Shown: positions 2,286-25,573 of the stretch, one piece after another
Layout: every line of letters starts with the position of its first letter
How positions within the stretch are numbered: position 1 is the first letter of the stretch
IMG/VR virus record: IMGVR_UViG_3300008448_013484
Coordinates: 1-25,573 of that record
Source of the DNA: a virus
DNA: 25,573 bases
Reading direction: 5' to 3' (one strand)
Notes under the pieces: generated by a model
The model's input: the letters and a program-made list of their open reading frames with translations, nothing else
Told to the model about the DNA's origin: nothing
Databases searched by the model: none
Position numbers and translations under genes: made by a program

Positions 2286-3029
2286 TTATTGAGATTGTTC
2301 AGCAAATGATTCCCAGCAAAATTCATCACTACCAAAGTGATTTAGGTTTGGCGAAGATAGTGTAGCTTGCTTACCGAATGATCGGTTACATACAATTTTA
2401 TAAGACTGGAATGCGTCACAGTCAGATTTATTTTTGTAGTAAATAGACTTAGTTAGAAATGTTTCGCAGTTATTACGCTGTGCATATTCCTCAACAGCAT
2501 TTTTAATCATGCCATCAAACGGCAGATTGTTTTGCTCAATAAAAAATATTGGCTTAATACCCTTGAACTCTGGAACACAATTTCCCAAGTACAATTGATT
2601 ATTAAAGATGAATGAATCATAAAATGGAACCGCCAGAATCAAGTTTGGCGTCCACATTTTTAGAAGATCATCATTAGTAATCTTGCCGTCACTCTCTGTA
2701 TTGATAAAGCTATACAGTTTATTCAAATCTTTGCAGCCAGCATCGTCTTTGGCGAATGCTACTAGCTTATGGCATGAGTCTTTATTTTCTAAGCATGTGC
2801 AGCAAGTAAAGCGATAGCCGAAAATTAATTGTATACCAAGATCCTTGCACTTGCGAAAAGCTTCAAAAAATCCAGTCATCGAATCTTCAACGAGATACAA
2901 TTCTTGTAAATTGTTTTCTTGAGCTATAGAAAAAATACTATCTGGACCATCCTCAACAGCTTTGTCGGGATGATCCAGAGTTAGTATGCTCTTGCCAATT
3001 GAAAAGTGAGATTTGAATAATGGAAGCAT
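2286..3029 (-). CDS. Stand-alone, degenerate PHP domain of DnaE-type polymerase
   Basis: 247 aa resembling the N-terminal PHP domain of DnaE. Seen: SHFSI near residue 7 (DnaE has HxHYS), YLVEDSMTG near 45 (DnaE has a TDHG-like motif), LIFGYRF near 68 (DnaE has IIGxEF), LVAFAKDDAGCKDLNKL near 89 (DnaE has the LLAxxxxGYxNL stretch). Several metal ligands look lost: the first His is K6, TDH reads VED, and the Glu after GY is R73. PHP-based phosphoesterase activity is therefore unlikely and a structural role is inferred. Four cysteines (C76, C77, C79, C86) sit in one loop. The product ends where DnaE's PHP domain would pass into the palm linker, and that linker starts the dnaE core gene. No Shine-Dalgarno; a promoter with its -10 six bases before the ATG is visible. 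Confidence 0.8.
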   Translation of the reverse strand: MLPLFKSHFSIGKSILTLDHPDKAVEDGPDSIFSIAQENNLQELYLVEDSMTGFFEAFRKCKDLGIQLIFGYRFTCCTCLENKDSCHKLVAFAKDDAGCKDLNKLYSFINTESDGKITNDDLLKMWTPNLILAVPFYDSFIFNNQLYLGNCVPEFKGIKPIFFIEQNNLPFDGMIKNAVEEYAQRNNCETFLTKSIYYKNKSDCDAFQSYKIVCNRSFGKQATLSSPNLNHFGSDEFCWESFAEQSQ

Positions 3030-3064
3030 TAACAGATGCTACCACAAACCTACACACAAGTCAA
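3030..3064 (-). promoter_or_regulatory. Promoter of the split replicase genes (leaderless type)
   Basis: On the minus strand, -35 TTGACT (3064-3059; it contains the stop codon of the upstream gene), a 17-bp spacer and -10 TAGCAT (3041-3036). The ATG of the PHP gene follows 6 nt after the -10, so a transcript starting at the usual distance would begin at or near the ATG. The spacer ends in TTTGTGG, which is also found at the dnaB promoter; only about 25 bp are shared, inside otherwise unrelated flanks. Confidence 0.6.
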
Positions 3065-4110
3065 TAATTTTGTGGGTGATAATGTGGACACCCTTTATAT
3101 TCCATTTTTTTATAGACGTATCCAGCGTCTTGTGGGTATTGTTTTTCAGACTCTTCCCTCTCATGATCAAAAATAGATTTGACCATAACATCGTCTTTAT
3201 AAATCAAAAAATATTCAAAGGGATAGCGCATTGGACAATGCCACATTACCGTTCCATCTTTTTTAAGCTGTCCTTGGTATTTACCCATGCCGCATTGTAG
3301 TGGCCCACCAAATGAATTATCAGTGGGATACTTTTGTCGAGCAGCAAGGTTGCCCATAGCATCTGATTCTGAAAAATTATCCAAGTATTCTTGGATGCCG
3401 TTCAACTGATATTCGAATCCTTCTAGATCATCATCCGAAATAATATTCATTCGGATTACGCCCTCTGACTTTTCTAACATCTCCTCATCCAAGCCGAACT
3501 TTAAAAACAAAAATTCACTCTGACGGTTTTTGTATTCTGGGTAAATATGCTTGATAGCAAGACTGTACATGTAGTCTTGAAGATTATCGGATACTTCTTT
3601 TCCTTTGAATTTCTGTTTGCTGCTTTTAAAGTCTCTAATAAGTGCAAACTTATTTTTCTTATACAAAAACAATTTGTCGATAAAGCCTTTGATTTTATAA
3701 CGACGATCTTCTTCGTTGCAAACAATTTCGAAGTCTTTTTCTGAAATAGCTTCAGTAGGTTTCCCAAAGCTTTCACCATAGAAGTCGTACTTCAATCCAT
3801 TCAAAGTCATTTCTTTGATAGATTCAATGTTCTCTTCGTCATCTACTCCAACTTTTTTAGCATGTTTGTAAATAAGACGCTTGATGGATGGTACTGCAAA
3901 AACATCCTGACGATTAATGATTTTTTTATAAATTGACTTTCTCTTCGGTTCACCAAGTAATTCAAAAATCAAGTGGCAAATACTGCCACGCTTTGCACCA
4001 TCATTGGATGCATCAGGTAGATTAAGCTTATACTTGCACCAGTATAGCCAACTACACGATTGAGCGGTTTTGATCCGACTAGCGGATAATGGTGTTACTG
4101 GTTCAGTCAT
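3061..4110 (-). CDS. PD-(D/E)XK nuclease, Cas4/AddB/RecB-like, possible Fe-S cluster
   Basis: 349-aa nuclease of the PDDEXK_1 (RecB/Cas4) type, expected to cut or resect DNA. Motifs in order: GSICH (H46), GFIDKL (D145), IRDFKSS (D160, K162) and QDYMYSL (Q178, Y180). This is the full H-D-DxK-QxxxY signature, so it should be active. Cysteines at C19/C25, C273, C292 and C341 resemble the N-terminal-plus-C-terminal layout that holds a 4Fe-4S cluster in Cas4 and AddB, although the C-terminal spacing is much wider. It overlaps the primase stop by 8 nt and belongs to the replication operon. No helicase domain is fused. It may process recombination intermediates with the RecA-like protein or degrade host DNA. 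No cas1/cas2 is nearby, so a CRISPR role is not supported. Confidence 0.82.
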   Translation of the reverse strand: MTEPVTPLSASRIKTAQSCSWLYWCKYKLNLPDASNDGAKRGSICHLIFELLGEPKRKSIYKKIINRQDVFAVPSIKRLIYKHAKKVGVDDEENIESIKEMTLNGLKYDFYGESFGKPTEAISEKDFEIVCNEEDRRYKIKGFIDKLFLYKKNKFALIRDFKSSKQKFKGKEVSDNLQDYMYSLAIKHIYPEYKNRQSEFLFLKFGLDEEMLEKSEGVIRMNIISDDDLEGFEYQLNGIQEYLDNFSESDAMGNLAARQKYPTDNSFGGPLQCGMGKYQGQLKKDGTVMWHCPMRYPFEYFLIYKDDVMVKSIFDHEREESEKQYPQDAGYVYKKMEYKGCPHYHPQNY

Positions 4111-5179
4111 AGTTTTGTAAAAATTTAATTAGCGATTGAACTTCTTTAAGCTTGAAGCGATGTTTATTGTTTTGAATAAACTCAAGCAGTTCATTTCGAT
4201 AAGTCTTTGAATCAACTTCACTATTATACCAATCTTCTAGATTATATCCACTCTGAAATGCTTCGGAGAAGTCATTATGTGGATGTGGCGGAAGCTTGAT
4301 TTGAATTTGATCAAAATCAAAGAACGGGCGCAGCGACATGAGGATGCTGATTGCCGATACATATCCATGATTAACTTGCGAATTGTAATCATTATTAGTT
4401 GCAATAATGATCTTTTTAATTGGGAAGGAATTCAAATAATTAATAATATTAGGTGAAACACCGATACCAAAAGTTACCAAGTTATTTTTAAATCCTTGCT
4501 CATGCAAAGCCATACTATCGCCAATGCTTTCTACAAGAATAACTTCCTGCTGCTGTTTAATTATAGAATCAATCGATTGATCTTGTGGGATATATGCTGG
4601 ATAGATCCAATTCTTGCGCTTACCAAGATGCTTCCACTTGGGAGATTGATCGTTGCCCTCGTCAATCTTTCTACCACTGAATCCAATAATTTGCTTATGC
4701 TCATTATAAATTGGGAATACCATGCGGCGATACATCTTTCCAGCACCAGCCAAACCTGTTTTATAAAATTTCAATATCTCTTCTGAGAAGCCCTTCTTGG
4801 TATAGAAAGTGAAATTGGGAAACAGTTTCTTTAGCATTTCTTCGGGATAAATTTCTTCCATTTCGATAGTTTCTTTTTTGGTATAAACGAATTCATCAGA
4901 CTTCTTTAGAGAAGCCATTATGTCCTTTAATTTTTTTTGATCGTTATTGAGAGTGAGTTGTATGAGTCGCTCAAAAGGTAAAGACTTATTACCTTGTACA
5001 AAGTCAGTCCAGACTCCTGTGTTTTTATAAATGCGGATAGACGTTTGATTGTCTCCTCCTCGGTACAAAGCACTAGTTCTCCAGTGGTTGCCAAAATCTA
5101 ATAGCTTATAGCCAACAGATTCTAGCGTAGCTTGGATCTGTGCTGGATCAATTGAAACTTGGCAGGTCGTCGTCGTCAT
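4103..5179 (-). CDS. DNA primase, DnaG-like with TOPRIM domain, zinc ligands lost
   Basis: 358-aa primase that should lay RNA primers beside the DnaB helicase. Residues 13-80 look like a CHC2-type zinc-binding N-terminus (RTSALYRGGDNQTSIRIY, then VWTDFVQGN), but the positions that hold Cys/His ligands are not Cys/His. Residues 150-175 carry the catalytic-core motif with IIGFSGRKID. The TOPRIM domain has LVESIGDSMAL (E217), then IIIATNNDYN, where the usual DxD reads NND (N262, D264), and a long C-terminal region. The start codon lies inside the dnaB coding end, a 32-nt overlap; no in-frame ATG lies between it and the CHC2-like region. Primase is the best call; another TOPRIM protein is possible but the helicase neighbour argues against it. 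Confidence 0.85.
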   Translation of the reverse strand: MTTTTCQVSIDPAQIQATLESVGYKLLDFGNHWRTSALYRGGDNQTSIRIYKNTGVWTDFVQGNKSLPFERLIQLTLNNDQKKLKDIMASLKKSDEFVYTKKETIEMEEIYPEEMLKKLFPNFTFYTKKGFSEEILKFYKTGLAGAGKMYRRMVFPIYNEHKQIIGFSGRKIDEGNDQSPKWKHLGKRKNWIYPAYIPQDQSIDSIIKQQQEVILVESIGDSMALHEQGFKNNLVTFGIGVSPNIINYLNSFPIKKIIIATNNDYNSQVNHGYVSAISILMSLRPFFDFDQIQIKLPPHPHNDFSEAFQSGYNLEDWYNSEVDSKTYRNELLEFIQNNKHRFKLKEVQSLIKFLQNYD

Positions 5180-6656
5180 CTTCGTCTAGTTCAAGGTTTC
5201 CTTCCATGAAGCGAGCAACATCACGAAGATCGCCTCTTTCAGTAATCGCAAAATTCTTAAATTCTAAATTAATGAAGTTCTTGCGGAGAGTATCACCAAC
5301 ACGCACAGGTTCAACTGCGCCAGCAATATCTTTGCCCAAGTGTCGAGCCTTAACATTGATCAACTTGTGCGTACCAAAGCTTCTACCCTCTGTTTCAATC
5401 TCGTCCACTGTTTTATTACGAAGAATAAACATGTGCGAGCAGAACTGTGTGATTCGGTCAGACAATGACACAATACTTTCATCATCAATAATATTCTGAG
5501 ACTGGCGATTATTTGTGATACCGCTTCTGTTTGACTGAACAGAAGTAATCATGGGAATCACGGGATTGCCATTTTCTAGGATCTCTTTCTGAATACACTT
5601 TTTAAACTTATCAACCATTTCACCAACTACCTGCCATTCATTTTTGCCAGCAGTTGATTCTGATGTTGTTTTGATATAGTCAAAAGAAAAGATCATCTTA
5701 TTGCCGCGACCCACTTTGCCATAATAGAATCTCTTGAGCGTTTTGATCATTGAGTCAACATCCATGCCGCCTACATTGTAGTAATAGAACCTCATGTTTT
5801 TAATCTTAGGCCAAATTGATCTGATCTTATTGACCACATCTTGTCCAGCCCTACGCCACTCACCCGTTTCGATCAAATGCATGGGTACACCAGATAGTGC
5901 GGCACACTGCCGCATAACCAGTTCCTCCTTGCTCATCTCGCCATTATCAAAGTGCAATACAGGGATGCCATACTCTACGGCAACCTTGGTGCTATAGTCC
6001 ATGCAAAACTGAGTTTTGCCAACACCAGATCGAGCAACAATAACCGTAATATTTCCTGGCCTCAGAAGCGAACCATAGATTTCATTTACTTTTTTATGTG
6101 GACCCATCATCCCGAATTCGTTGACAGGATTGTTGCCACGCTCTTCGACAAGAGCTTCCATTTCTTCGTAAATGTTTTCTGGCACATCATTGCCAATCTC
6201 GTACAAATTGATGCGAGAATTATAAGCATTATCCGCCTGTTCAATAATGTCAGAGTAAGTCGTATCTGGAGAAACAGACTTCATTCTCTTTGCGATCTCT
6301 TGAGCGGACTCAAAGATCTCGCGGCGAATAGTAAACTTCTTTAATTCACGCGCAGTTTTAACCAAGTTGCCCTTGGGAACTTTTCTGAAGGCCAATGAAC
6401 GGATGTAGTCTGCTGGATTTACCCTATCTTCAAACGACAATCCAAGAGAATTGACTCGTTGGGCAATGATTACTTCGTCCACTGCTTCGCCAGAATCAAT
6501 GGCTTGTTTGATGATAGTAAAAATTGTACTATGCAGGTTGGATTCTTCTGAATAAAAATCCTTGGAACTGATAAAATTTGCGACCTCTGTGTAGCTCTCA
6601 GGTTCCTTGATGAGAGCAGCGAGCAATTGTTTTTCCAATTCTAAGTTATAAATCAT
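5148..6656 (-). CDS. dnaB: Replicative DNA helicase DnaB
   Basis: 502-aa hexameric replicative helicase. An N-terminal DnaB domain (residues 1-100, starting LEKQLLAALI) is followed by a linker and the RecA-like ATPase. Walker A is ARSGVGKT (208-215), the H1a glutamate is in FDNGEMSKEEL (E240), Walker B is MIFSFDY (D326), and a QSNRSG motif follows. The C-terminus is an acidic run (EDDDDDLPSFN) resembling the acidic tip of bacterial SSB (DDDIPF). The DNA for this tail also encodes the start of the primase gene in another frame. It is the first gene after a recognisable promoter; the gap to the upstream nuclease gene is 38 nt and no Shine-Dalgarno is seen. Confidence 0.95.
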   Translation of the reverse strand: MIYNLELEKQLLAALIKEPESYTEVANFISSKDFYSEESNLHSTIFTIIKQAIDSGEAVDEVIIAQRVNSLGLSFEDRVNPADYIRSLAFRKVPKGNLVKTARELKKFTIRREIFESAQEIAKRMKSVSPDTTYSDIIEQADNAYNSRINLYEIGNDVPENIYEEMEALVEERGNNPVNEFGMMGPHKKVNEIYGSLLRPGNITVIVARSGVGKTQFCMDYSTKVAVEYGIPVLHFDNGEMSKEELVMRQCAALSGVPMHLIETGEWRRAGQDVVNKIRSIWPKIKNMRFYYYNVGGMDVDSMIKTLKRFYYGKVGRGNKMIFSFDYIKTTSESTAGKNEWQVVGEMVDKFKKCIQKEILENGNPVIPMITSVQSNRSGITNNRQSQNIIDDESIVSLSDRITQFCSHMFILRNKTVDEIETEGRSFGTHKLINVKARHLGKDIAGAVEPVRVGDTLRKNFINLEFKNFAITERGDLRDVARFMEGNLELDEDDDDDLPSFN

Positions 6657-6693
6657 ACCAAGCTAAAGATACCACAAATCCTAGAGAAGTCAA
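6657..6693 (-). promoter_or_regulatory. Promoter of dnaB (leaderless type)
   Basis: On the minus strand, -35 TTGACT (6693-6688), a 16-bp spacer and -10 TATCTT (6671-6666), with the dnaB ATG 9 nt after the -10. The spacer contains TAGG and ends in TTTGTGG, in the same order as in the promoter before the PHP gene. The shared order TTGACTT, TAGG, TTTGTGGTA in two unrelated contexts supports a real element. Confidence 0.6.
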
Positions 6694-8225: not shown

Positions 8226-8562
8226 TTAAAAAATCTTTTATTGTTTTTGCTGGCTTTGAAATCTCTATATCATCACCAACCTTTTCTCCTATATCATACC
8301 ATTCATACTTCGAAAGATCAACCTTAAAATTAAAGGCGCGGAATTTTTGGTCTAGCGTGTCTTTGAGTTTTTCGCTCACTAGATAAGCTAGTGAATCAAA
8401 TTTCTTATCAAAAGATACAGCATTCATAAACTCCAATGAATAACGATCACATAGATCGTTAAGGAACTTCATTTCTCGCATATAAAACAAACGCTTATCC
8501 TTTGTGGGGACAAGCGTTAGTCTTGCAAGAATATGTTTCTTGTTAATCTTAGACTTTGCCAT
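8212..8562 (-). CDS. Hypothetical protein upstream of the recombinase gene
   Basis: 116 aa, not recognised. It is rich in Lys and Asp, with an N-terminal basic stretch (MAKSKINKKH) and no membrane segment, signal peptide or clear motif. It starts 14 nt inside the end of gmd and ends 14 nt inside the recombinase gene, so it is part of the replication run and not of the sugar island. Its start is one of the few with a plausible Shine-Dalgarno: GGAG about 6 nt before the ATG. A small DNA-binding or recombination-accessory protein is conceivable from position alone. Confidence 0.7.
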   Translation of the reverse strand: MAKSKINKKHILARLTLVPTKDKRLFYMREMKFLNDLCDRYSLEFMNAVSFDKKFDSLAYLVSEKLKDTLDQKFRAFNFKVDLSKYEWYDIGEKVGDDIEISKPAKTIKDFLNEQD

Positions 8563-9613
8563 CTAGCTCCATTATATCGTGAGCTACCATCTTGTCAACA
8601 AGTTTTTTGAAAGATGTTTTGGGTTGCCATCCAAGTTTTTCTCTAGCTTTTGTTGAATCACCCAAAAGCAGATCAACTTCTGCTGGGCGATAAAATTTTT
8701 CATCAATTTCTACAAGCTTAGTTTGTGGCAGTCCAATAAAATCAGATAAATAATTGGGTAATAAATATAAAGTATTTAATTTTTCGCCAACCCAAATACC
8801 TTCGATACCTGCTGCTTGAAATGCTAATTCCACAAATTCTTTAATTGTATGTGTTTCATTGGAAGATAAAACATATTCTTTAGGCTTGTCTTGATTTAAC
8901 ATTAACCATACACCCTCTACAAAATCTTCAGCATCGCTCCAGTCTCTTTTAGCTTCAAGATTACCAAGCTTTAAAGGTTCAAAAGTTATTTTGTTTTCGA
9001 TTGCTTTTTTAATTCTAGCAACATTTTTAGTGATTTTGCGAGTGACAAATTCTTCTCCCCGTCTTGTGCCTTCATGATTGAATAACCAACCTTGAATAGC
9101 ATATAAATTATATGAATCACGATATACTTTAACTAGATGTCTCGCTGAGGCTTTAGAAGCTCCATAAGGACTCCTTGGACGAAGCGGATGTTCTTCGGAC
9201 TGAGGGGCAGTTACAACATCACCAAATTCTTCTGAAGAACCAGCATTATAATAACGGCAATGTGGAGCGTATTTGCGTATAGCTTCTAGTTGATATAATA
9301 CTGGCATGCAATTGGTTTGCATATGATGCATAGGCATATTCCAACTATTTCCAACAAAAGAATTTGCGGCAAAATTAATAAAATAATCTGGCTGCTCATC
9401 ACGAATAATTAATGATGTATTCATTGCGTCAGCAATATCTAAATCAATTAATTTAAATCGAGGATTATTTAGTAAATGTTGTATGTTTTTATGATTCGGC
9501 ACACTCAATCTTCTTATGCCAGCTATAATAATATAATCGGTATTCTTCAGAAGATAGTCAGCCATGAAGCTGCCATCTTGGCCTGTTATCCCAGTGATAA
9601 TAACTTTTTTCAT
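8549..9613 (-). CDS. gmd: GDP-mannose 4,6-dehydratase
   Basis: 354-aa extended SDR that converts GDP-D-mannose to GDP-4-keto-6-deoxy-D-mannose. Rossmann motif TGITGQDGS with GxxGxxG at 8-14, GSSEEFG near 125 (the catalytic Ser/Glu region), catalytic Y150 and K154 in YGASK, and the family stretch NHEGTRRGEEFVTRKI. Length is close to the family norm (about 345-375). It is the last gene of the sugar island, overlaps the upstream ColD-like gene by 4 nt, and runs 14 nt into the 116-aa gene of the replication block. GDP-mannose must come from the host, since no mannose pyrophosphorylase is visible. Together with the next two upstream genes it fits GDP-colitose synthesis. Confidence 0.93.
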   Translation of the reverse strand: MKKVIITGITGQDGSFMADYLLKNTDYIIIAGIRRLSVPNHKNIQHLLNNPRFKLIDLDIADAMNTSLIIRDEQPDYFINFAANSFVGNSWNMPMHHMQTNCMPVLYQLEAIRKYAPHCRYYNAGSSEEFGDVVTAPQSEEHPLRPRSPYGASKASARHLVKVYRDSYNLYAIQGWLFNHEGTRRGEEFVTRKITKNVARIKKAIENKITFEPLKLGNLEAKRDWSDAEDFVEGVWLMLNQDKPKEYVLSSNETHTIKEFVELAFQAAGIEGIWVGEKLNTLYLLPNYLSDFIGLPQTKLVEIDEKFYRPAEVDLLLGDSTKAREKLGWQPKTSFKKLVDKMVAHDIMELDGKV

Positions 9614-10755
9614 ATGGTGGAATTAATAAAATTAACTAAATTTAAAATTTGTTTTTCTTGTACATTATAATGCAAACCAACATAAAAACAATATTTATGT
9701 AAAAAATCGCTATTTGGAAAATTATTAGCATTTCCAAATTTACTATAGCAGGTTTGTCTTAATAAATTACCAGAAATAATAGGACGAGTTTCTATTTGAT
9801 TTGTTTCACAAAATTCAAATATTTTTTGTTTTTGTTCTTGATTTTCGCAAATAATTGGCAGACAAAATGGAGAGTGTTTCTTTTCTGTTTCTATTTTATA
9901 ATTAAATTTTAATAATTTATTAGCATATAGATTAAAAAGTTTTTCTCTTTTTTTCTTCAATTTTGCTATTCTTTTAAAATCTAAAAGGCCAATAAAGGCA
10001 TGTATATCACTATTCCTAAAATTGTTTCCAAAACAATAGAAATCAAATCTAGCATCAACATCTGGATTAGCATATTTTTCTGGTTCAGCAATGCTTCTTG
10101 TCATACCATGATTTCTTAACATAAGAAAATATTCATACTCTTCATACGAATTTGTAAAAATAAATCCACCTTCTACGCTTTGAATTTGATGTCCAAAATA
10201 AGTACTGGTAGTGCTAGTAAAAAAAGATGAAATATTTTTATTACGAAAAGAACCAAAAGTATTTTCACAATTATCCATCATAATTTTTACTTGATACTTC
10301 TCTCCTATTTCTTTTAATCGATTTATATCTGGAACAAATCCAATTAAACTTGTGACAAAAACACAAGCAACTGAATTATTATTTTCCTTCAAATAAGTTT
10401 CTAAAGCATCTAAATCTAAAGAAAAGTCTGATAGAGAAATATCTAAGAAAATCGGCTCAAAGCCCTCTCGTATAAATGGAGAAATTGATGTTGTCCAAGT
10501 TGTAGATGGAAATATAATCTGTTTTTTTTCTTCTTTGTTATGATCTTTTAGATACATAGCTAGAACAGTATTAGCAGTAGAACCGCTAGAAACAAATACA
10601 GCATATTTTGATCCAATATATTGAGCCATCTGTTCTTCAAAAAGTCGAACTTTTGAATTCATAGTCCAAAAATTCTTTTTTTGCAAGAAGAAGCGGCATA
10701 TTTTCAATCTATCAAAAAAGCTAAAATTTGAATCATTTAATTTCCAAGGTTTCAT
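9610..10755 (-). CDS. colD: GDP-4-keto-6-deoxymannose 3-dehydratase, ColD-like
   Basis: 381-aa member of the DegT/DnrJ/EryC1 PLP-enzyme fold. The key observation is that the residue holding PLP as a Schiff base in aminotransferases is H189 (GHQIQSVEGG; six residues before E195), not Lys. In ColD and RfbH the same Lys-to-His change turns the fold into a 3-dehydratase that removes the C3 hydroxyl. Other motifs: SSGSTAN (57-63, phosphate binding) and DNCEN (D161, PLP ring nitrogen). Neighbours on either side are Gmd and an Fcl/ColC-like reductase, the gene set of the GDP-L-colitose pathway. It overlaps the upstream gene by 23 nt and the downstream one by ATGA. An aminotransferase function is unlikely without the lysine. 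Confidence 0.85.
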   Translation of the reverse strand: MKPWKLNDSNFSFFDRLKICRFFLQKKNFWTMNSKVRLFEEQMAQYIGSKYAVFVSSGSTANTVLAMYLKDHNKEEKKQIIFPSTTWTTSISPFIREGFEPIFLDISLSDFSLDLDALETYLKENNNSVACVFVTSLIGFVPDINRLKEIGEKYQVKIMMDNCENTFGSFRNKNISSFFTSTTSTYFGHQIQSVEGGFIFTNSYEEYEYFLMLRNHGMTRSIAEPEKYANPDVDARFDFYCFGNNFRNSDIHAFIGLLDFKRIAKLKKKREKLFNLYANKLLKFNYKIETEKKHSPFCLPIICENQEQKQKIFEFCETNQIETRPIISGNLLRQTCYSKFGNANNFPNSDFLHKYCFYVGLHYNVQEKQILNLVNFINSTI

Positions 10756-11656
10756 TATTTTTTTTTAGATATGTTTTTAAAATTCCTTCAGATAAAGGTG
10801 TGAATTGAAAATCTGGATAGTCTTTTAGAAACTTTTCAGACGATGCATCTTTTCTAAATTGGCCATCAGGTTTGCTTTTATCCCAAATAATTTTTAAATA
10901 ATCAGCATTGCAAGCTTTTAAAGCAACTTCTGCAATTTGTTTTATACTCAAATTCTCTGGTGTGCAGATATTATAACTAAAGTTCTTTGTGTTTTCAATA
11001 GTTAATGTAATTGCTTTTGCTAAATCTTCTGCATACATGAACTGTCTCAAAGGCGAACCAGACCCAAATAATTCTATAGCGCCTTGATTTTTTTGTTTAG
11101 CTAAAATAATTTTTTTAATTAAGCTAGATAAAAAATGTGCTTTATTACCTTCAAAATGATCATGTTCTGAATATAGATTACATGGAATTAAGTATGAATA
11201 TTGAGTTCCATATTGTTCATTATAGGAATCCATTTGTACAGCCATACATCTTTTCGCATATCCATAAGCAAAATTAGTTTTAGTGGGTGGTCCCAAATGT
11301 AAATATTCTTCTTTAATGGGATACTGAGATTTGGATAAAACATCTGGATATATACAAGTACTTAATATGCTAACAACTTTTTTTATTCCAAGCGAATAAG
11401 CGCATTTAATCACATTACTATTAATATATATATTATCATCAAAAAATCCAACAGGATCATTTATGTTATCTAATATTCCTCCCACTTTCGCAGCTAAATG
11501 TATGATAGCATCAGGTTTATGAAATTTAAATACTTCGTAAGTATTATTAAAATTTCTTAAATCGCAATCGGCACTCGAAAGATAAATTGCATTGGGCAAA
11601 AATTTTTTTAAATGTTTTCCAACCATGCTGGAGCCACCAGTAACTAATATTTTCAT
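10733..11656 (-). CDS. GDP-L-colitose synthase or GDP-L-fucose synthase (Fcl/ColC family)
   Basis: 307-aa SDR epimerase/reductase. Rossmann motif GGSSMVG (7-13), the family active-site pattern STCIYPD (S99, C101), catalytic Y131 and K135 in YGYAK, H165 in NLYSEHDHF, and PLRQFMYAEDLA later. This is the Fcl/GFUS signature. ColC, the C5 epimerase and C4 reductase that completes GDP-colitose, belongs to the same family. The ColD-like gene immediately downstream favours ColC; with Gmd alone it would make GDP-fucose. Its ATG overlaps the stop of the preceding glycosyltransferase gene by 4 nt. The sequence alone cannot separate the two specificities. Confidence 0.88.
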   Translation of the reverse strand: MKILVTGGSSMVGKHLKKFLPNAIYLSSADCDLRNFNNTYEVFKFHKPDAIIHLAAKVGGILDNINDPVGFFDDNIYINSNVIKCAYSLGIKKVVSILSTCIYPDVLSKSQYPIKEEYLHLGPPTKTNFAYGYAKRCMAVQMDSYNEQYGTQYSYLIPCNLYSEHDHFEGNKAHFLSSLIKKIILAKQKNQGAIELFGSGSPLRQFMYAEDLAKAITLTIENTKNFSYNICTPENLSIKQIAEVALKACNADYLKIIWDKSKPDGQFRKDASSEKFLKDYPDFQFTPLSEGILKTYLKKNNETLEIK

Positions 11657-12462
11657 AAGTTAAAATCTTTATCAAAGAAGTCTCCACAATTGCACATGCT
11701 TTTAAAAAATTTTTTAGTTTCTGAGTTGAATGCTTGATTGATCCAATAATTTATTATGTGAATAAATGAAGAGTCGTCTAAATTTCCTAAACCCTCGCAA
11801 TAATGAAATACTTTAATTTGTTTTTTATCATGAGAGTATAATTTATTATCAAGAACTTTCCAATGATTTGTGTAATTATGCCAAGGTTTTTCTCCTGACT
11901 GGGCAGCTACATTTCCTTTTGATCTAACATTATAAATAACTTCGGATTTATCATAAGGATAATCTATTATTTTATAAGAATAATTATTAATATTATTCCA
12001 AATAATTTGATTCAATGCTCCTTGTTCATAATAACTTGTTGAGTAATTTTTTGTAATTTCACATATTTTATATAAGAAAGATAAATTATTAATACATAAA
12101 ACATCTGCATTTAAATGTGTTTCATGATCTGGAGTAGTTACATATTCAGTAGATAACTGATATGGATAATCTAATGTCGCTAAAATATCTTCACTAGAAT
12201 CTAAAAACTCAAAAAGTCTAGCGCATGTTATTGTGTCCGCTCCTAAAAATATAGATTTTTTTATATTTTCTTTTAAGCAAATTGATAATGCTTGTTCAAA
12301 TTTATCAACCGCATGATAAACTGAATAATCATTTTTATTTAAAATAATTATTCTAATATCTGGATGATAATACTTAAAACTGTTAATCGCGCATTCTAAC
12401 AGTTTATCATATCTGTTAGAATCGGAATAAAAAAAACAAGCTGTATTAGCTAAATAATTCAT
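11653..12462 (-). CDS. GT-A-type glycosyltransferase (GT8-like)
   Basis: 269 aa resembling nucleotide-diphospho-sugar transferases of the GT8/GT77 kind. Residues 1-60 carry an N-terminal beta/alpha start (NTACFFYSDSNRYDKLLECA), then IFLGADTI (72-78, an xDT motif in place of DxD), LNADVLCIN, YYEQGALNQIIW and a C-terminal KVFHYCEGLG with the His typical of these enzymes. No signal peptide or membrane segment is seen, so it is probably cytoplasmic. It is joined by a 4-nt overlap to both neighbours. Donor and acceptor are unknown; the neighbouring genes suggest a dideoxyhexose donor. Confidence 0.7.
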   Translation of the reverse strand: MNYLANTACFFYSDSNRYDKLLECAINSFKYYHPDIRIIILNKNDYSVYHAVDKFEQALSICLKENIKKSIFLGADTITCARLFEFLDSSEDILATLDYPYQLSTEYVTTPDHETHLNADVLCINNLSFLYKICEITKNYSTSYYEQGALNQIIWNNINNYSYKIIDYPYDKSEVIYNVRSKGNVAAQSGEKPWHNYTNHWKVLDNKLYSHDKKQIKVFHYCEGLGNLDDSSFIHIINYWINQAFNSETKKFFKSMCNCGDFFDKDFNL

Positions 12463-13268
12463 TGCGATAATATTGATTGTATAGCAGCTTTAGTTTCTAT
12501 AAATTTTAGATTTATTTTTTTTATTTTTTCTGCACTGCCAGTATAGTTAAATAAGTAGGGTAATTTTTGTATCTCAATACCGTTACCATAAATTATTTTA
12601 ATGATATCTGTTAATTTATATTTTTTTTCATAACATAAATTAATGTCTTTTGGAAGGTGGTTTCCATTGATAATATAATACTCTAATATAGAAATAAAAT
12701 CTTTTATATAAAAAAAGTCCATATATTTATTTCCATGTATTTCTGGGGGTAGTCCATTTTTGAATCGAGTTATATTATTTTTAATAAATCGTGTGTCATT
12801 TTCGTTCTCATCAAAAATACCAAATATTCTAAAATTTATAATATTATTATTAATTTGTTGGATTCGTTTGCTAATTAGATTTTTTGAAAATCCATAATAA
12901 TCTTTGGGTATACATGAAAAGATATCTTCTTCTTTTGCATTAAAAATATGTTGAGACATATCAAATTCTGCACCAGATCCAATATTAAATATAAATTTAA
13001 CTTTATCCTTATAAAGTAATAAATTTTCGAACATTAACAAGTTTTTATAAACAATCGAAGCGTCATACTGAATATTTCTATGACCACCTTCAATTGCTGT
13101 ATGTATAATTATATCTGGTTTTATATCTGATAATTGCTTTATTATACTATCTTTATCTAATAAATTTGAATTGTCTCTATTTAAAGAAATTAATTCATAT
13201 TTATCTTTTAAATAAAGAGAAATGCTTTTAGCAATATATCCATTTCCACCAGTTATTAGTATTTTCAT
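12459..13268 (-). CDS. NAD(P)-dependent SDR epimerase/reductase
   Basis: 269-aa short extended SDR. Rossmann TGGNGYIA (6-13), GSGAEFD (97-103) supplying the active-site Ser, and YYGFSK with Y125 and K129. The length is that of sugar 4-ketoreductases. It follows the E1 beta gene by ATGA overlap, so it probably acts last in the second dideoxysugar pathway by reducing a keto group, as Tyv/Abe/Prt-type or YerF-type reductases do. The exact substrate is inferred only. Very AT-rich compared with the replication genes. Confidence 0.75.
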   Translation of the reverse strand: MKILITGGNGYIAKSISLYLKDKYELISLNRDNSNLLDKDSIIKQLSDIKPDIIIHTAIEGGHRNIQYDASIVYKNLLMFENLLLYKDKVKFIFNIGSGAEFDMSQHIFNAKEEDIFSCIPKDYYGFSKNLISKRIQQINNNIINFRIFGIFDENENDTRFIKNNITRFKNGLPPEIHGNKYMDFFYIKDFISILEYYIINGNHLPKDINLCYEKKYKLTDIIKIIYGNGIEIQKLPYLFNYTGSAEKIKKINLKFIETKAAIQSILSQ

Positions 13269-13801
13269 TTTTCTTTACTAAAGTCTCCGAATTCTACTAA
13301 CATAGTACTCTTGCCATCTGTTCTATTAAGAGCTTTCTCATAAGCAGGTAAAATATCTTCTGGTTCGATTAACTCGATAATATCGAGGGTTTTGCACATC
13401 AATCTAAAGGCTTCTGCAAAATTACCTTTATGTTGATCCTGTGGATCTACGGGGCGTTCACTACCTACTGCTACTCTGATAATAACTTTAGGCAAGCATT
13501 TACCTCTTGACATTAATGGAATTTTATCTAAATGATTAACTATTTGATCTGTACCCATTAGTAAAAAGTTCCATCTGGGAATAACTGAAACTGGTATCAT
13601 ACCTTCAATAGCCATTCCATTAACAATACCTGATTGTAAATATTCCGCTACGGGAAACTCCATTTTTTTATGATCAGGTATATGCGTTAACGAATCATAA
13701 AGACCTGTACCTTCATACTCTACAGCTTGACCAATAAAAACTGTTTGTGGATGCTCGGCAAGCAAGGACATTGCTTTTTTTATTTCATTAAGATATTTCA
13801 T
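13265..13801 (-). CDS. ThDP-dependent E1 beta-like subunit (pyrimidine-binding domain only)
   Basis: 178 aa related to the beta subunit of pyruvate/acetoin dehydrogenase E1 and to the Pyr domain of transketolase. The conserved activating glutamate is E53 in FPVAEYLQSGIVNGMA; GTDQIVNH and PKVIIRVAVGSERP follow, and then an EPED stretch where the Pyr domain ends. Normal E1 beta is about 320-340 aa; the C-terminal transketolase_C domain, which binds E2 in dehydrogenase complexes, is missing. It starts 2 nt after the stop of the E1 alpha-like gene, so the two products are expected to form one enzyme. See the findings for a possible role in branched-sugar synthesis. Confidence 0.82.
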   Translation of the reverse strand: MKYLNEIKKAMSLLAEHPQTVFIGQAVEYEGTGLYDSLTHIPDHKKMEFPVAEYLQSGIVNGMAIEGMIPVSVIPRWNFLLMGTDQIVNHLDKIPLMSRGKCLPKVIIRVAVGSERPVDPQDQHKGNFAEAFRLMCKTLDIIELIEPEDILPAYEKALNRTDGKSTMLVEFGDFSKEK

Positions 13802-13803
13802 AA

Positions 13804-14433
13804 TTAAAATTGTACACGTTTACCTGCCCCAGCATGAGGATACTTATTATTATCATATTGATAATAAATTAAATTTCTCTGTCTAAGAATACCACCATTA
13901 TATTTATTTTCTAGAAAATAAGGGGTTGTTCTGTTCCATACATTATTAGTTGGAGTGCATACAGATTTTCCATTATCTTCCACAATAAAAGTAATTGGTA
14001 GGTCATGATTTAAGCTATATTTATAGGCTTCATGAAAAGCTCCTGTTTCTGCGCTCATATCACCAACCCAACACCAAACTCTATTAGATTTATTTTTTAA
14101 TTTAATAGCTAAAGCGATACCAGCAGCAATAGATGGAATACCACCAACAATTGAACTACAAATAAATTTATACTCAGGTAGTGTCATTACCATTGATTTA
14201 CCATTTATAATATTTTCTTTGAGAATTTCATGCGGTATTCCTTTTAAAAGTCCTTGATAATGATTTCTCCATGTGCAGCATACCCAATCCTCTTCAATAT
14301 TGATATCTTTAAAAATTTCTATCATGATATCTTCATTACCATGATATAAGTGAATAGGCGCTCTAATAGCACCACTATCAAATGTGTCGCCAATTTCACG
14401 CTCAAATTTAATTAATTGTTCTGCTGTTACCAT
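13804..14433 (-). CDS. ThDP-dependent E1 alpha-like subunit (diphosphate-binding domain)
   Basis: 209 aa related to E1 alpha of 2-oxo-acid dehydrogenases and the PP domain of transketolase. The thiamin diphosphate motif is present: GDM (124-126), 26 residues, then DN (153-154), a GDG-x26-NN variant. Before it are RNHYQGLLKG (56-65, the YRDHG region) and SSIVGGIPSIAAGIALA. Normal E1 alpha is about 320-370 aa, so the C-terminal part is short. There is no lipoyl E2 or E3 gene in the window. The gene overlaps the RmlB-like gene by 7 nt and precedes the E1 beta-like gene directly. This pair resembles the E1-like AviB1/AviB2 proteins linked to a two-carbon branch on the eurekanate sugar of avilamycin; the similarity is recalled, not computed. 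Confidence 0.82.
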   Translation of the reverse strand: MVTAEQLIKFEREIGDTFDSGAIRAPIHLYHGNEDIMIEIFKDINIEEDWVCCTWRNHYQGLLKGIPHEILKENIINGKSMVMTLPEYKFICSSIVGGIPSIAAGIALAIKLKNKSNRVWCWVGDMSAETGAFHEAYKYSLNHDLPITFIVEDNGKSVCTPTNNVWNRTTPYFLENKYNGGILRQRNLIYYQYDNNKYPHAGAGKRVQF

Positions 14434-15374
14434 ATATATATTCTTTTATAATACTCTACAATATCTGAAAGCTCTTTATCAAAATCAGCCTCTGGTTTCC
14501 AACCTAAAGACCTAAGCTTGCTATCATCAAGAGCATATCTAAGATCTTGACCGTCTCTATTATAAGAGAAATCAATACAATCTTCAATATCTTTACCATT
14601 ATAAAGATTAGCTATTTTAGCGAATGTCTCATAGTTACTCTGTTCATAATCTCCATTAATATTATAAATTTCATTTTTTACTTCTTTTTCGATTATAGTA
14701 ATAATTGCATTTGCAGTATCACGCGCATGCAACCAATTGCGTATAGGAGTACCATTATTATGAAGAGGTAATTTCTTATTTAATTTTAGATATTTGCAAG
14801 CCTTGGGAATAAGCTTTTCTACATATTGTCCTATGCCATAATTATTAGTTGGTCTAACTATAATATATGGAATGCCATAAGTGCGATTCCAAGCTAATAC
14901 TAACATATCTGCTGCTGCTTTTGTAGCGGAATATGGATTGCTTGGCTTGAGCAAATCATCTTCTGTGTGAACTCCATTTATAATATCACCATAAACTTCA
15001 TCAGTACTAAAGTGTAATAATGTAGGTTTTTTATTTGTTTCTTGTCTATAGTTTTTTATTAATTCAAGGAGATTATGAACACCATTAATATTTGATGATA
15101 TAAATTCATTGCTATTCGCTATAGAATTACCAACATGAGTTTCTGCCGCAGTATTAATAATATAATCACATTCGTAAAGAAATTTTAATTCATTAATGTC
15201 GCAATGCACAAATGAAAAATTTTCATACTTTTGAAATTCTTTGAGTAATGTTGTATTGGCGGCGTATGTAATTTTATCGACACCCTTTACATACCAACCT
15301 TTTTCTAAACATAATCTAGTCACATAAGAACCAATAAATCCAAGACATCCAGTAATATATACTACTTTTTTCAT
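14427..15374 (-). CDS. NDP-glucose 4,6-dehydratase, RmlB-like
   Basis: 315-aa extended SDR of the RmlB type, which forms NDP-4-keto-6-deoxyglucose. Seen: TGCLGFIG (8-15), TAAETHVGNSI (75-85), STDEVYGD (123-130, with the catalytic Asp125-Glu126 pair), YSATK (148-152), RPTNNYG and PIRNWLHARD. These favour dTDP-glucose 4,6-dehydratase; CDP-glucose 4,6-dehydratase (RfbG) would be the usual partner of an RfbH enzyme but has a different signature. No nucleotidyltransferase gene is in the window, so NDP-glucose must come from the host or from phage genes elsewhere. It overlaps the RfbH-like gene by 4 nt. Confidence 0.88.
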   Translation of the reverse strand: MKKVVYITGCLGFIGSYVTRLCLEKGWYVKGVDKITYAANTTLLKEFQKYENFSFVHCDINELKFLYECDYIINTAAETHVGNSIANSNEFISSNINGVHNLLELIKNYRQETNKKPTLLHFSTDEVYGDIINGVHTEDDLLKPSNPYSATKAAADMLVLAWNRTYGIPYIIVRPTNNYGIGQYVEKLIPKACKYLKLNKKLPLHNNGTPIRNWLHARDTANAIITIIEKEVKNEIYNINGDYEQSNYETFAKIANLYNGKDIEDCIDFSYNRDGQDLRYALDDSKLRSLGWKPEADFDKELSDIVEYYKRIYIW

Positions 15375-16696
15375 AATGTTTTTATAAATTTTTCTAGAAC
15401 TGATTCTATATAATCGATTTGTTTTTCAGAAATGACGGGGCTAGTGCCAAGAAAAAAAGTATCAGTAGTAATTTTGCGAGCATTGGGAAATCCATTAATA
15501 ACATGCTGTTCGTCCATCATTCCTTTATATGCTGGCTGAAGCATAATGTTTCCAGCAAAGTATGGTCTTGTTTGTATTTTATTGGATTCAAAAAAATCAA
15601 CAATATTTTTACGTTTAAATGGCGCATTATCTTTAAGCGTGGCAGCGAAAGCAAACCAACTAGGATCACTATTAAATGTTGCTTTAGGAAGAATAAAAAA
15701 TTCTTCATATTTAGAAAATACATTTAAAAGTCTATTATGATTTTGTTTTCTTTTTTCTATAATAAATGGAAGCTTTTTAATTTGTTCCAAGCCCATTGCC
15801 GCTTGCATTTCAATTGGCTTCAGATTATAACCTATTTCATCATAAACATATTTATGGTCAAATATTTCATCAGGCAATGATGGCAACCAATTACTAAATC
15901 TTTTACCACAACTTCCATTTTTTGAAAGTCCAGCTTTTTGTCCAACACAATAACAACCTCTACCCCATTCTCTTAAATTTCGAACAATGTTTTCTTGCTC
16001 TTTTGTTTTAGTAGAAATGAAGCCGCCTTCTCCCATTGTTATATGATGAGCAGGATAAAATGAACAACTAGACATTTCTCCAAAACTTCCAAGAGGTTGA
16101 TTGTTATAAGTGGAGCCTAAAGCATCACAACAATCTTCTAATAAAATTAGATCATAGTCTTTAACGATTTGCATCAATTTATCCATATTTGGAGGATTAC
16201 CTAAAACATGTGCAAATGTAATAATTTTAGCACCATTTTTCGCTTGCTCTTCTACCTGTTCTAAATTTAAGTTTAAAGTATCTAAATCAATATCTACAAA
16301 TAGAGGTTCAAATCCAACTTGAAAAATAGGATTAATAGTAGTTGGAAATCCAGCTATTGGAGTAATAACTTTAGTACCTTTAGGTAGATTATATAACCTA
16401 TTAGATGTCATTGCAGACATCATTAACAAATTCGAACTACTACCACTATTAGTTAGTACCCCATATTCTTTACCAAGAAATTTAGAAAATTGTCTTTCAA
16501 ATACCAAGCCTTGATGCCCCAAAACTAACCATCCATTTAATATAGTTTTTATTGCTTCTACATATTCACTACTATCAAATAATGGACCTGCATATTGAAC
16601 CCAATCTTTTCCCTCTTCCCAAGAGGTCTGTTTATTATCAACAAAGTTTTTTACTAAAGATAGTATTTCATTTAAATTTTCCATTTGTCTTTCCAT
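15371..16696 (-). CDS. rfbH: NDP-4-keto-6-deoxyglucose 3-dehydratase, RfbH/DdhC family
   Basis: 441-aa PLP and [2Fe-2S] enzyme, close to the family length (about 437). The PLP lysine is replaced by H217 in PAHHITMGEGG, as in RfbH/E1 of Yersinia. The Fe-S ligand pattern C-x57-C-x-C is exact (C190, C248, C250), but the last cysteine, C263, is 12 residues on, where Yersinia E1 has 7. Other motifs: NSGSSSNLL (83-91) and LLEDCCDALGS (185-195). It removes the C3 hydroxyl and needs a reductase (DdhD/E3) that is not in the window and may come from the host. The start at 16696 overlaps the GT2 gene by 25 nt; an ATG at 16684 would fit almost as well. Confidence 0.92.
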   Translation of the reverse strand: MERQMENLNEILSLVKNFVDNKQTSWEEGKDWVQYAGPLFDSSEYVEAIKTILNGWLVLGHQGLVFERQFSKFLGKEYGVLTNSGSSSNLLMMSAMTSNRLYNLPKGTKVITPIAGFPTTINPIFQVGFEPLFVDIDLDTLNLNLEQVEEQAKNGAKIITFAHVLGNPPNMDKLMQIVKDYDLILLEDCCDALGSTYNNQPLGSFGEMSSCSFYPAHHITMGEGGFISTKTKEQENIVRNLREWGRGCYCVGQKAGLSKNGSCGKRFSNWLPSLPDEIFDHKYVYDEIGYNLKPIEMQAAMGLEQIKKLPFIIEKRKQNHNRLLNVFSKYEEFFILPKATFNSDPSWFAFAATLKDNAPFKRKNIVDFFESNKIQTRPYFAGNIMLQPAYKGMMDEQHVINGFPNARKITTDTFFLGTSPVISEKQIDYIESVLEKFIKTL

Positions 16697-20054: not shown

Positions 20055-20083
20055 ATTATAAGCTCAAAGCTCGTCTTCTTCTA
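20044..20083 (-). promoter_or_regulatory. Possible promoter of the glycosylation island
   Basis: On the minus strand a perfect -10, TATAAT (20060-20055), lies 11 nt before the ATG of the first island gene. At 17 bp spacing the -35 would be TAGAAG (20083-20078), only 3 of 6 matches, so an activator or a phage factor may be needed. Predicted leader is about 5 nt. It overlaps the end of the upstream gene. Confidence 0.4.
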
Positions 20084-21038
20084 TTTCTATTTCGATATTT
20101 TTAAGATCTGGATTTTCTAAGAATAACTCTTCCTGTTCTAAGAAGTCAGTATCATCCCAGCCCCAATCATCAATATCATCCTCTAAAAGAATAGTGTCTT
20201 CAGAAGCCATTGACGAAACTGGTTTGCGACTCCAAAAACGGCAACTCCAGTATCTGGCTTTCCACTTAGGACCAACATTAGTATCGCACTGATGTCTAGC
20301 TCTAAAATTGCGGCGGCGTTCTGGATCGTCTCTGCGGATTTCCATATTTGGATCTCCGAATTTTACCATGACAGTATTGCCTTTATCATTTTTTACATAA
20401 ACACCAAATTTCTTTTTAGAGCCACTAGGTAATCTAAATGGCTTATTAAGTGTTTTTTGTTCTGCTTCTGAATAGTCAATATCATCTAAATCAATATCAC
20501 CTTCAAGATCAAGATCAACTCCAGCCTTGATAAGATCAATGCGAGCTAGATCGAAGTCTAAAGACTCAAACTCCCAAAAGCAATCTTCTGGCTTTTGTTC
20601 GTAGTACAGTTCTGAACCAGCAGCAACATCTTGATCAGCAGCGCGATAGGAATCTTTAACCTTTCCTCCACGAACCATTTTAAGAAACATATTAACGCGA
20701 GCCATTGCCCAACTATTTCTTGTTTGGCCTGGCCTATGAGACGCAGAGAAAGCTCCAAGACCACGACGATACACTTTCTTTAATTGAGAAAGAGTTACCT
20801 TCTTACTATATTTTTCATTATGCGAGGAAACCTTCTCCTTCAGAGAGTTAATGATTTTCTCTGTAAATTGAATTTTGCCACCATCTTTGCCAGCGGAACC
20901 CTTTGGATTTTTATCAGATCCTCTGCGTCTTTCAGAAGGTAATGCTGGAGTCTGTGCGTCACTTTTCGGGCCAGAACGTTTTGCAGCTTCTGTATTGTCA
21001 AAAAGCTCTTGAATTTTGGTAGAAAAATCAATTTCCAT
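20064..21038 (-). CDS. Phage protein of unknown function with two conserved-looking modules
   Basis: 324 aa. Residues 1-60 are low-complexity and charged (RSGPKSDAQ, PSERRRGSDKNPKG). Residues 81-137 form a first module (LSQLKKVYRRGLGAF, SASHRPGQTRNSWAMARV, MFLKMVRGGKV) that resembles a DUF5824-like domain. Residues 150-200 are acidic. Residues 209-270 form a second module (KKFGVYVKN, VKFGDPNMEIRRDDPERRR, RARHQCD, ARYWSCRFW; C251 and C266) that I recall in many T4-like and cyanophage proteins without a settled function. The C-terminus is strongly acidic. Family assignment is from memory and uncertain. It sits between the sugar island and nrdA with 19-37 nt gaps, so it may be its own transcription unit. 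Confidence 0.65.
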   Translation of the reverse strand: MEIDFSTKIQELFDNTEAAKRSGPKSDAQTPALPSERRRGSDKNPKGSAGKDGGKIQFTEKIINSLKEKVSSHNEKYSKKVTLSQLKKVYRRGLGAFSASHRPGQTRNSWAMARVNMFLKMVRGGKVKDSYRAADQDVAAGSELYYEQKPEDCFWEFESLDFDLARIDLIKAGVDLDLEGDIDLDDIDYSEAEQKTLNKPFRLPSGSKKKFGVYVKNDKGNTVMVKFGDPNMEIRRDDPERRRNFRARHQCDTNVGPKWKARYWSCRFWSRKPVSSMASEDTILLEDDIDDWGWDDTDFLEQEELFLENPDLKNIEIEIEEDEL

Positions 21039-21075
21039 AATATATTGTTATTACACTATTTTTTTAAAAAAATAA

Positions 21076-22760: not shown

Positions 22761-23732
22761 TTAAAAAATATCATCTTCAGAAAACGACTGAGACTTTTTC
22801 GAATATTCAACTGGCCTAGAGTGGAAGAAGTCAGTCATATTATTGCCCAACAGTTCTTCGTCAAACCACATTGTAGACGAAACAAGAGATTCGTCAACTT
22901 CAAAAACAGGAGGAAATGAGATTTGTGTGAGTGACTCATTAATCCTACGCTTAATAAATTCTTTTAAGATGGGCGCAGAAAGCCCAGTCTCATTAATGCC
23001 ATTCACCATCCAATCGATAATCTTAGATTCTGATTTAAATGCTTCCATAGCTTCGCTAAGGATTTTCTGCTCCAAGTCTTCATCAAAAAGTTCTGGATGC
23101 TCTTCTCTAATGGTATTGATAATCTTAACACCAATGAGAGCGTGGATATTTTCTTCGTTCCTTGTGTACTTTACCTGCTGATCGGTATCTTTGAGGACAT
23201 TCTTATGTCGAGCAAACCAGTTGATGACATAGAACTGTGAAAACAAAGAAACATTCTCAACAAAGAGAGTAAACAGAATTAAAGCATAAAGATATTGCTT
23301 TTTAGAGTCTTTATAGAACTTGTGTGTATATTTTTTCAAGTACTTAACGCGGCCTTGAATCCACTCAAGTTTGAGATTTTCTTCAAAAATATCCTCAAGA
23401 TCTAGGGTGCTAAGAAGTCGCTCATAGGCATTATTGTGAATAACTTCCACATTTGCCATTACAAACCCAAGATCCTGCAATGAAGGGTGGGGAAGATTAT
23501 CACCAAGCTTTGACCAAAAGGTTTTTACAGCTACTTCAATCTGTCCAATTGCAGAAAGAGTTCTGATAATAATCTCCCGCTCTTGATCTGTAAGTTCAGT
23601 CTTAAACTGTTGAACATCTGACTTAAAAGAAAACTCTTTATCGGTCCAAAACCCATTGTGCATGGCCTCGATAAAATCTTCTGTCCACGGATAGTGATTC
23701 GGCTTTCTTGAAACTTGTTCCTCAAAGATCAT
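22761..23732 (-). CDS. nrdB: Class I ribonucleotide reductase, small (beta) subunit
   Basis: 323-aa ferritin-like radical-generating subunit. Metal ligands by pattern: E66, E96 and H99 (EVIH), E159 (FVENVSLF), E194 and H197 (EENIH). Y103, four residues after H99, matches the E. coli tyrosyl-radical Y122, so this is a Tyr-radical type and not the Phe-containing Ic type. The C-terminal tail that binds the alpha subunit ends SFSEDDIF. It is the first gene of the minus-strand run and is transcribed before nrdA, the reverse of the usual nrdA-nrdB order. Confidence 0.95.
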   Translation of the reverse strand: MIFEEQVSRKPNHYPWTEDFIEAMHNGFWTDKEFSFKSDVQQFKTELTDQEREIIIRTLSAIGQIEVAVKTFWSKLGDNLPHPSLQDLGFVMANVEVIHNNAYERLLSTLDLEDIFEENLKLEWIQGRVKYLKKYTHKFYKDSKKQYLYALILFTLFVENVSLFSQFYVINWFARHKNVLKDTDQQVKYTRNEENIHALIGVKIINTIREEHPELFDEDLEQKILSEAMEAFKSESKIIDWMVNGINETGLSAPILKEFIKRRINESLTQISFPPVFEVDESLVSSTMWFDEELLGNNMTDFFHSRPVEYSKKSQSFSEDDIF

Positions 23733-23755
23733 AGTGTTATAGTTTACACTATAAC
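23731..23755. repeat. Operator-like inverted repeats over the nrdB -10 and start codon
   Basis: Two interleaved perfect 7-bp inverted repeats: ATAGTGT (23731-23737) with ACACTAT (23746-23752), and GTTATAG (23736-23742) with CTATAAC (23749-23755). They cover the -10, the predicted transcription start and the first bases of the ATG. ACACTAT resembles the core of the NrdR box (ACACwATAT), so NrdR-type repression is possible. That match is by eye. Confidence 0.5.
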
Positions 23756-24822: not shown

Positions 24823-25403
24823 GTATTATAGGAATAAGCGGACCTGCCCGTAGCGGTAAAGATACATTGGCAGATCGCATCTGCGAAATTCTTGCTGCTT
24901 CAAACATCAAATGTGAAAAAACATCTTTTGCCAAACAACTAAAGTTGGAATGTAAGGATTTTATCCACAGCACATTGGGTATTGATGTTTTTACCGAAAA
25001 TGATGATGAGAAAAATATCATTCGCCCGATGCTTGTTACTTGGGGTACTCATGTTCGACGCAAGCTAGATCCAGATATTTGGGTAAAATCTGTCGAAAAA
25101 CAATTAAAAGAAAATGTCGTGACTATTGTTAGCGATGTCCGATTTGAAAATGAATTTAATTGGATCAAAGATAATAACGGATTTAATATTTTTGTTGATA
25201 GAGTTTTACCAAACGGTAAACTTGTTCAACCAGCAAATGATGACGAAAGGAATAACACCATTCCTTTGAGAGAGAAATCAGACCATTTCTTTGTTTGGAA
25301 TACAATTGAAAATGATGATTGGCTTTCAGCAATCGCCCTTGAGGTTTTATATAAAACCATACCAGAAGAAACTTTAAACCTATGGAAGAAGACCTATGTT
25401 TGA
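24819..25403 (+). CDS. Deoxynucleoside monophosphate kinase, T4 gp1-like
   Basis: 194-aa P-loop kinase, expected to phosphorylate dNMPs to dNDPs so that dUTPase and nucleotide salvage products re-enter the dNTP pool. P-loop GPARSGKDT (8-16), then LVTWGTHVRRKLDPDIW (near 72-88, the T/W-G-T-x-xR segment of gp1-like kinases) and TIVSDVRFENEF (Walker B-like). The length is slightly below T4 gp1 (241 aa). AGGA lies a few bases before the ATG. The gene is in one operon with dut, consistent with nucleotide metabolism; the end overlaps the following gene by 22 nt. Confidence 0.85.
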   Translation: MSIIGISGPARSGKDTLADRICEILAASNIKCEKTSFAKQLKLECKDFIHSTLGIDVFTENDDEKNIIRPMLVTWGTHVRRKLDPDIWVKSVEKQLKENVVTIVSDVRFENEFNWIKDNNGFNIFVDRVLPNGKLVQPANDDERNNTIPLREKSDHFFVWNTIENDDWLSAIALEVLYKTIPEETLNLWKKTYV

Positions 25404-25573
25404 TTAATAGAATCAAAGAAGAAAACGATAGTATTAGCTTGCAGGAATTGATTAATAGACACTCTGGAGTCTATGTTGATGTAGTTAACAAAATGGTTTC
25501 AGAAACGTGTGAGTTTATGAATAAATCAGATATTTTATCTGACAAAGATTTCTCAATATACAATGCTGCCTTA
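25382..25573 (+). CDS. Probable phage sigma factor (partial, 5' end only)
   Basis: 64 codons are visible and the frame is open to the right edge. The start MEEDLCLINRIKEENDSISL, followed by QELINRHSGVYVDVVNKM, resembles the N-terminal part (regions 1.2/2.1) of sigma-70 family proteins, such as ikxgd-x-x-L-x-eLixrhx-xiy. If correct, it would be a phage-encoded sigma factor (T4 gp55-like) for middle or late transcription. Only about 60 residues are visible, so the DNA-binding parts cannot be checked. It overlaps the dNMP kinase gene by 22 nt. Confidence 0.55.
   Translation, partial: MEEDLCLINRIKEENDSISLQELINRHSGVYVDVVNKMVSETCEFMNKSDILSDKDFSIYNAAL

Follow-up and report, generated by a model that had tools for sequence, protein, structure and literature searches.

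Transcription from sigma-70 promoters starts 6-8 nt past the -10 hexamer, and the extended -10 motif is TRTGN. The late promoters of phage T4 consist of TATAAATA, have no -35 and are read by the phage sigma factor gp55. Lambda cI is expressed from a leaderless phage mRNA, and leaderless mRNAs are reportedly also made by Thermus phage P23-45; to our knowledge, phages have mostly furnished isolated examples of such mRNAs. In bacterial leaderless genes, a TANNNT signal precedes the start codon by about 12 bp (PMC3160421). ORFs adjacent to a -10 element have been described in Deinococcus-Thermus and, in Deinococcus, promoters of this kind are strengthened by a -35 located 17 bp upstream (PMC12340547).

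The window, i.e., the whole 25.6 kb stretch of viral DNA that was analyzed, includes the genes of a PHP-domain protein and of a DnaB-like replicative helicase (Table 1). The ATG codons of both genes are backed by tblastn, the matches in close relatives starting at residue 1. A sequence-only reading had claimed that a shared promoter-like element precedes these two genes and implies leaderless mRNAs, and had suggested a genome-wide motif search. In the window, a search for TTGACTT-N8..16-TTTGTGGTA returned exactly two matches, 3064-3040(-) and 6693-6670(-), located directly before the PHP gene and dnaB. The mean obtained with 100 dinucleotide shuffles was 0.00, indicating that the repeat, which has TAGG inside both copies, is real.

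Both copies match 9 of the 12 positions of the -35/-10 consensus and have TG(G) directly before the -10. The -35, TTGACT, agrees with the consensus at five of six positions at both copies, and the -10 hexamers in the window at only four of six. The TTTGTGG found directly 5′ of TAnnnT includes the TRTGN extended -10. The gaps behind the stop codons of the upstream genes, 31 and 38 bp, are wholly occupied by the two sites. The first T of the -10 was found 12 nt (PHP gene) and 15 nt (dnaB) before the start codon, the TANNNT placement of leaderless genes. As previously claimed, 6-9 nt separate the -10 from the ATG (6 nt at the PHP gene and 9 nt at dnaB), and neither start has a Shine-Dalgarno sequence. 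Since transcription usually starts 6-8 nt downstream of the -10, these distances would place the start at or near the AUG. A -10 that abuts the ATG at two replication genes, both without Shine-Dalgarno sequences, makes leaderless mRNAs probable. The -35/-10 consensus scan of the window was not evidence by itself because it found 32 sites compared with 28 expected from shuffles.

The window appears to hold at least four sigma-70 promoters abutting a start codon. The third one lies inside the preceding gene, at the 3′ end of its coding sequence, and similar promoters were matched in G001, G004, G005, G008 and G009. Since relatives have similar promoters, the DNA at 8598-8560(-) may be constrained by codons and promoter together.

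Table 1. Features identified in the window, with positions counted from its first nucleotide.
Feature	Position	Strand	Elements or evidence
PHP-domain protein gene, 247 aa	2286..3029	(-)	Pfam PHP 1.7e-6
PHP-gene discriminator and ATG	3027..3035	(-)	CTGTTA (6 nt), ATG 3029-3027; read from sequence
PHP-gene predicted promoter	3036..3064	(-)	-35 TTGACT 3064-3059; 17 bp spacer with TAGG and extended -10 TGTGG; -10 TAGCAT 3041-3036
DnaB-like replicative helicase gene, 502 aa	5148..6656	(-)	Pfam DnaB_C 3.4e-15, DnaB 1.5e-13
dnaB discriminator and ATG	6654..6665	(-)	TAGCTTGGT (9 nt), ATG 6656-6654; read from sequence
dnaB predicted promoter	6666..6693	(-)	-35 TTGACT 6693-6688; 16 bp spacer with TAGG and extended -10 TGTGG; -10 TATCTT 6671-6666
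Third predicted promoter abutting a start codon	8560..8598	(-)	TTGACA-N16-TATAAT (12/12), 8 nt, ATG 8562
AGTGTAA-N12-ATG before DUF5824 gene (20064-21038)	21036..21057	(-)	Motif scan
AGTGTAA-N11-ATG before nrdB	23730..23750	(-)	Overlapped by a TTGATA-N17-TATAGT pair
Fourth predicted promoter abutting a start codon	24004..24041	(+)	TTGACA-N17-TAAATT, 6 nt, ATG 24039
N-terminal 64 codons of putative phage sigma-like factor, cut by window end	25382..25573	(+)	50% identity over 64 aa to L134 homologue, E 3e-15

The upstream regions of relatives, fetched from viral contigs (80 dnaB loci and 22 PHP-gene loci), were aligned on the ATG. In this alignment the closer relatives have TTGACA-like and TATNNT-like hexamers at the same place, and the intervening sequence varies freely. 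Each distinct upstream region, with the window included in both sets, was scored by its best -35/-10 pair ending 4-11 nt before the ATG. A score of at least 9/12 was reached by 14 of the 14 distinct PHP regions (2.9% in shuffles) and by 13 of the 17 distinct dnaB regions (3.9% in shuffles). The -35 of the relatives is mostly TTGACA, and a minority of them have TG before the -10. Most of the distant dnaB relatives have neither an intergenic gap nor such a promoter. Both promoters were kept in position by descent. The TAGG/TTTGTGG core was not kept in the relatives examined, although the -35 and the -10 were; its sole near-equivalent among them is TTTTTGTGTTATGCT at the dnaB of L003.

The same layout recurs across the clade. 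The pattern TTGAC-N17..19-TANNNT-N4..10-ATG had 124 matches in 14 clade records compared with 16 for the reversed pattern, a count that includes records nearly identical to one another and may register one promoter twice. Forward and reversed matches were 7 and 5 in T4, 3 and 0 in Bacillus phage 268TH004, and 1 and 0 in Thermus phage P23-45. When all TTGAC/TANNNT pairs of eight clade records were taken together with the first ATG opening an ORF of at least 35 aa, the distance from the -10 to the ATG was 0-3 nt in no case, 4-11 nt in 75 and 12-19 nt in seven; the longer bins held seven (20-27 nt), nine (28-35 nt) and eight (36-43 nt). Combined with a transcription start 6-8 nt past the -10, the 4-11 nt peak would make the mRNAs begin at the AUG or no more than a few nucleotides from it. 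Shine-Dalgarno tetramers were found at 3-7% of the gene starts in the clade, called naively as in all the genome-wide scans, which is the level of a control window; the same pipeline found them at 46-63% in T4, the Bacillus phage, P23-45 and Roseobacter phage DSS3P8. The sequence-only reading was correct in calling the elements promoter-like: they are sigma-70 elements at the right spacing, kept in position by descent, in a layout found clade-wide. In a separate region, L106:4599-14317 (G009 64.6-74.3 kb), about 10 short genes form an array in which many stand behind TTGACA...TAACTTTTCCCCGCC-ATG-like, predicted leaderless promoters (TTTCCCCG before the ATG); it looks like an early region.

Two matches where none were expected, both preceding replication genes, could mean that TTGACTT-TAGG-TTTGTGGTA acts as a shared regulatory element peculiar to this phage, either a middle-promoter box or an activator box, through which the two replication transcripts are controlled together. 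We consider this improbable. The core is missing from the relatives examined, which keep the -35 and -10, and the 25.6 kb fragment holds no third copy. Furthermore, 2.9 million viral contigs scanned with the pattern TTGAC-N3..10-AGG-N0..2-TTTGTGGTA yielded at least 120 stretches. Among the matches listed, 57 of 96 distinct ones were exactly 25 nt long (= TTGACN-N17-TA), compared with about 12 expected from the number of gap combinations, and TATAAT was the commonest -10 at that place (21 of the 24-26 nt matches). In unrelated phages, again among the matches listed, the next start codon was mostly tens of bases away or there was none within 100 nt. The core string appears to be largely generic promoter sequence, and its proposed role as the shared element defining a promoter class could not be upheld, given its absence from the same promoters in relatives examined and its generic spacing in unrelated phages. 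The similarity between the two sites is also modest beside that of other clade promoter pairs: spacer to spacer, 25 of 3160 pairs scored at least as high, and a good number of these are orthologues or belong to a near-identical array in G009; among same-genome pairs it was 12 of 572, mostly from this array of near-copies. Convergence or local copying suffices to account for it. That the two promoters are a recent local duplication or gene-conversion pair, sharing the spacer without function, is unlikely but deserves some weight, because the spacer sharing is confined to this genome and the G009 array indicates that promoter copying occurs in the clade. However, the similarity ends past the -10 and short of the -35, its alignment needs gaps, and convergence on the extended -10 accounts for part of it. 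A duplication would concern the origin of the similarity only and is compatible with sigma-70 promoters giving leaderless mRNAs.

As a counterpoint to the leaderless explanation, read-through from the upstream same-strand genes could also be an expression route for both genes. In a further rival reading, the sites are not promoters, the genes are transcribed from upstream, and the AT-rich gaps serve translation only. The neighboring genes, all on one strand with tiny gaps, fit this reading, which nonetheless leaves unexplained a conserved -35 at the correct spacing and a layout enriched over the reversed pattern; we judge it highly improbable. A promoter of the Bacteroidota type (TTTG ... TAnnTTTG, with TTTG at -33 and TAnnTTTG as the -7 element) is scarcely credible. 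The PHP site does contain TAGGTTTG, and distant dnaB relatives occur in Flavobacteriaceae MAG bins, but the TAGGATTTG of the dnaB site is wrongly spaced, and in relatives the listed promoters keep TTGACA/TATAAT and do not have the motif. This candidate was rejected because TAnnTTTG is present at one of the two sites only and is contradicted by the promoters of the relatives. The explanation that we favor, and regard as likely, is that the PHP and dnaB sites are conventional sigma-70/sigma-A promoters read by the host that give leaderless mRNAs, and that this layout is a general mode of expression in the clade. The host RNA polymerase would read TTGACT, the 16/17 bp spacer, the extended -10 TGTGG and TAnnnT. 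The PHP-gene transcript would have the A of the AUG, or a base adjoining it, as its first nucleotide; the dnaB transcript would start about 2 nt before the AUG, for a predicted leader of 0-3 nt. These mRNAs would be translated via their 5′-terminal AUG, without Shine-Dalgarno pairing.

A second motif, AGTGTAA, emerged when the regions preceding clade genes were analyzed for enriched hexamers. In the 14 clade records, AGTGTAA-N7..12-ATG had 88 matches compared with nine for the reversed pattern; the counts were 17 and one in four more distant relatives and two and two in three control phages. The commonest distance to the ATG is exactly 8 nt, and no -35 was evident before the motif in averaged upstream sequence. 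The genes behind it include those of a minor tail protein, a head structural protein, endolysins, a ClpB-like ATPase and PhoH; clade loci with AGTGTAA-N8-ATG, among them L121, L110, L104 and L105, have it before virion, lysis and some nucleotide-metabolism genes. Because this motif marks virion and lysis genes, the earlier suggestion that the PHP and dnaB promoters belong to an early or middle class is plausible. The clade has two families of sigma-like proteins (L134:11160-11735(-) and L106:17032-17721(+)). The first is encoded after a dNMP kinase gene, in the window as well as in L134, where the homologue matches the PHROG RNA polymerase sigma factor profile (6.6e-10) and Sigma70_r2 (4.5e-5, just below the curated cut-off), weak profile matches that make it a candidate sigma factor. 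By analogy with T4 late promoters, AGTGTAA is probably a late promoter class that would be read by the phage sigma-like factor. Searching the literature turned up no description of a late phage promoter with AGTGTAA.

The host marker genes WhiB, Photo_RC and ribosomal S21 were absent, the RecA-like protein had no match to any named phage, and searches with the Ro-type RNA-binding protein, the tail protein and the ribonucleotide reductase (RNR) indicated many different hosts. For the RNR, the best hits come closest in alphaproteobacterial phages, at 58-65% identity, but these phages are not syntenic. The genome-contig search found only five dnaB relatives (50-74% identity); their bins are assigned to Lokiarchaeota or Flavobacteriaceae, or are unclassified. 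A block of about 12 genes at 8549-20043(-), flanked in the window by the recA-like operon on one side and the DUF5824/RNR genes on the other, looks like a nucleotide-sugar and glycosyltransferase cluster; the DegT aminotransferase (15371-16696) is its only profile-confirmed member. One-piece tmRNAs encoded by phages were found beside many tRNA genes at L110:7863-8241(-) and L121:9190-9583(-). Their tags are long and unusual (GNNKIVSFRKPNYSSKTVAFAA, GKNKVVTFRKSAKVARKASLAAA) and presumably recall cyanobacterial tags. A group I intron is located near a tRNA-Leu gene at L110:9567-9762(-).

We propose tentatively, as a possibility that goes beyond the two loci, that a lineage of large tailed phages dropped Shine-Dalgarno initiation. 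Both promoter classes, the host-sigma TTGACA/TATAAT of replication genes and the phage-sigma AGTGTAA of virion and lysis genes, would be fused directly to start codons, and the lead genes of both stages would be translated from leaderless mRNAs. If true, a phage clade with promoters abutting start codons throughout the genome and Shine-Dalgarno motifs at background would offer a natural model of leaderless initiation in infected cells, and two concrete, testable promoter rules follow. Gene finders that rely on Shine-Dalgarno sequences may misplace starts in such phages and, if AGTGTAA is read by a phage sigma factor, uncultured phages would have an identifiable early/late switch.

Like T4 late promoters, AGTGTAA lacks a -35, lies before virion and lysis genes and occurs in phages that encode sigma-like proteins; it differs in sequence, it is usually 8 nt from the ATG, and its link to a sigma factor is putative. 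The PHP and dnaB sites share with sigma-70/sigma-A extended -10 promoters the TTGACT, the 16/17 bp spacing and the TGTGG immediately 5′ of TAnnnT, but a start codon takes the place of the 5′ UTR. Bacterial leaderless genes likewise have the -10 hexamer a few nucleotides before the ATG and no Shine-Dalgarno sequence. The case described here concerns a phage clade rather than a cellular genome, and a TTGACA -35 is nearly always present at the PHP and dnaB loci. With the single leaderless phage mRNAs it has in common a promoter set directly against the start codon. Unlike the clade, P23-45 has Shine-Dalgarno-like motifs at 57% of its starts in the same scan. What distinguishes the clade from these single cases is that the arrangement recurs genome-wide, with no Shine-Dalgarno sequences elsewhere.
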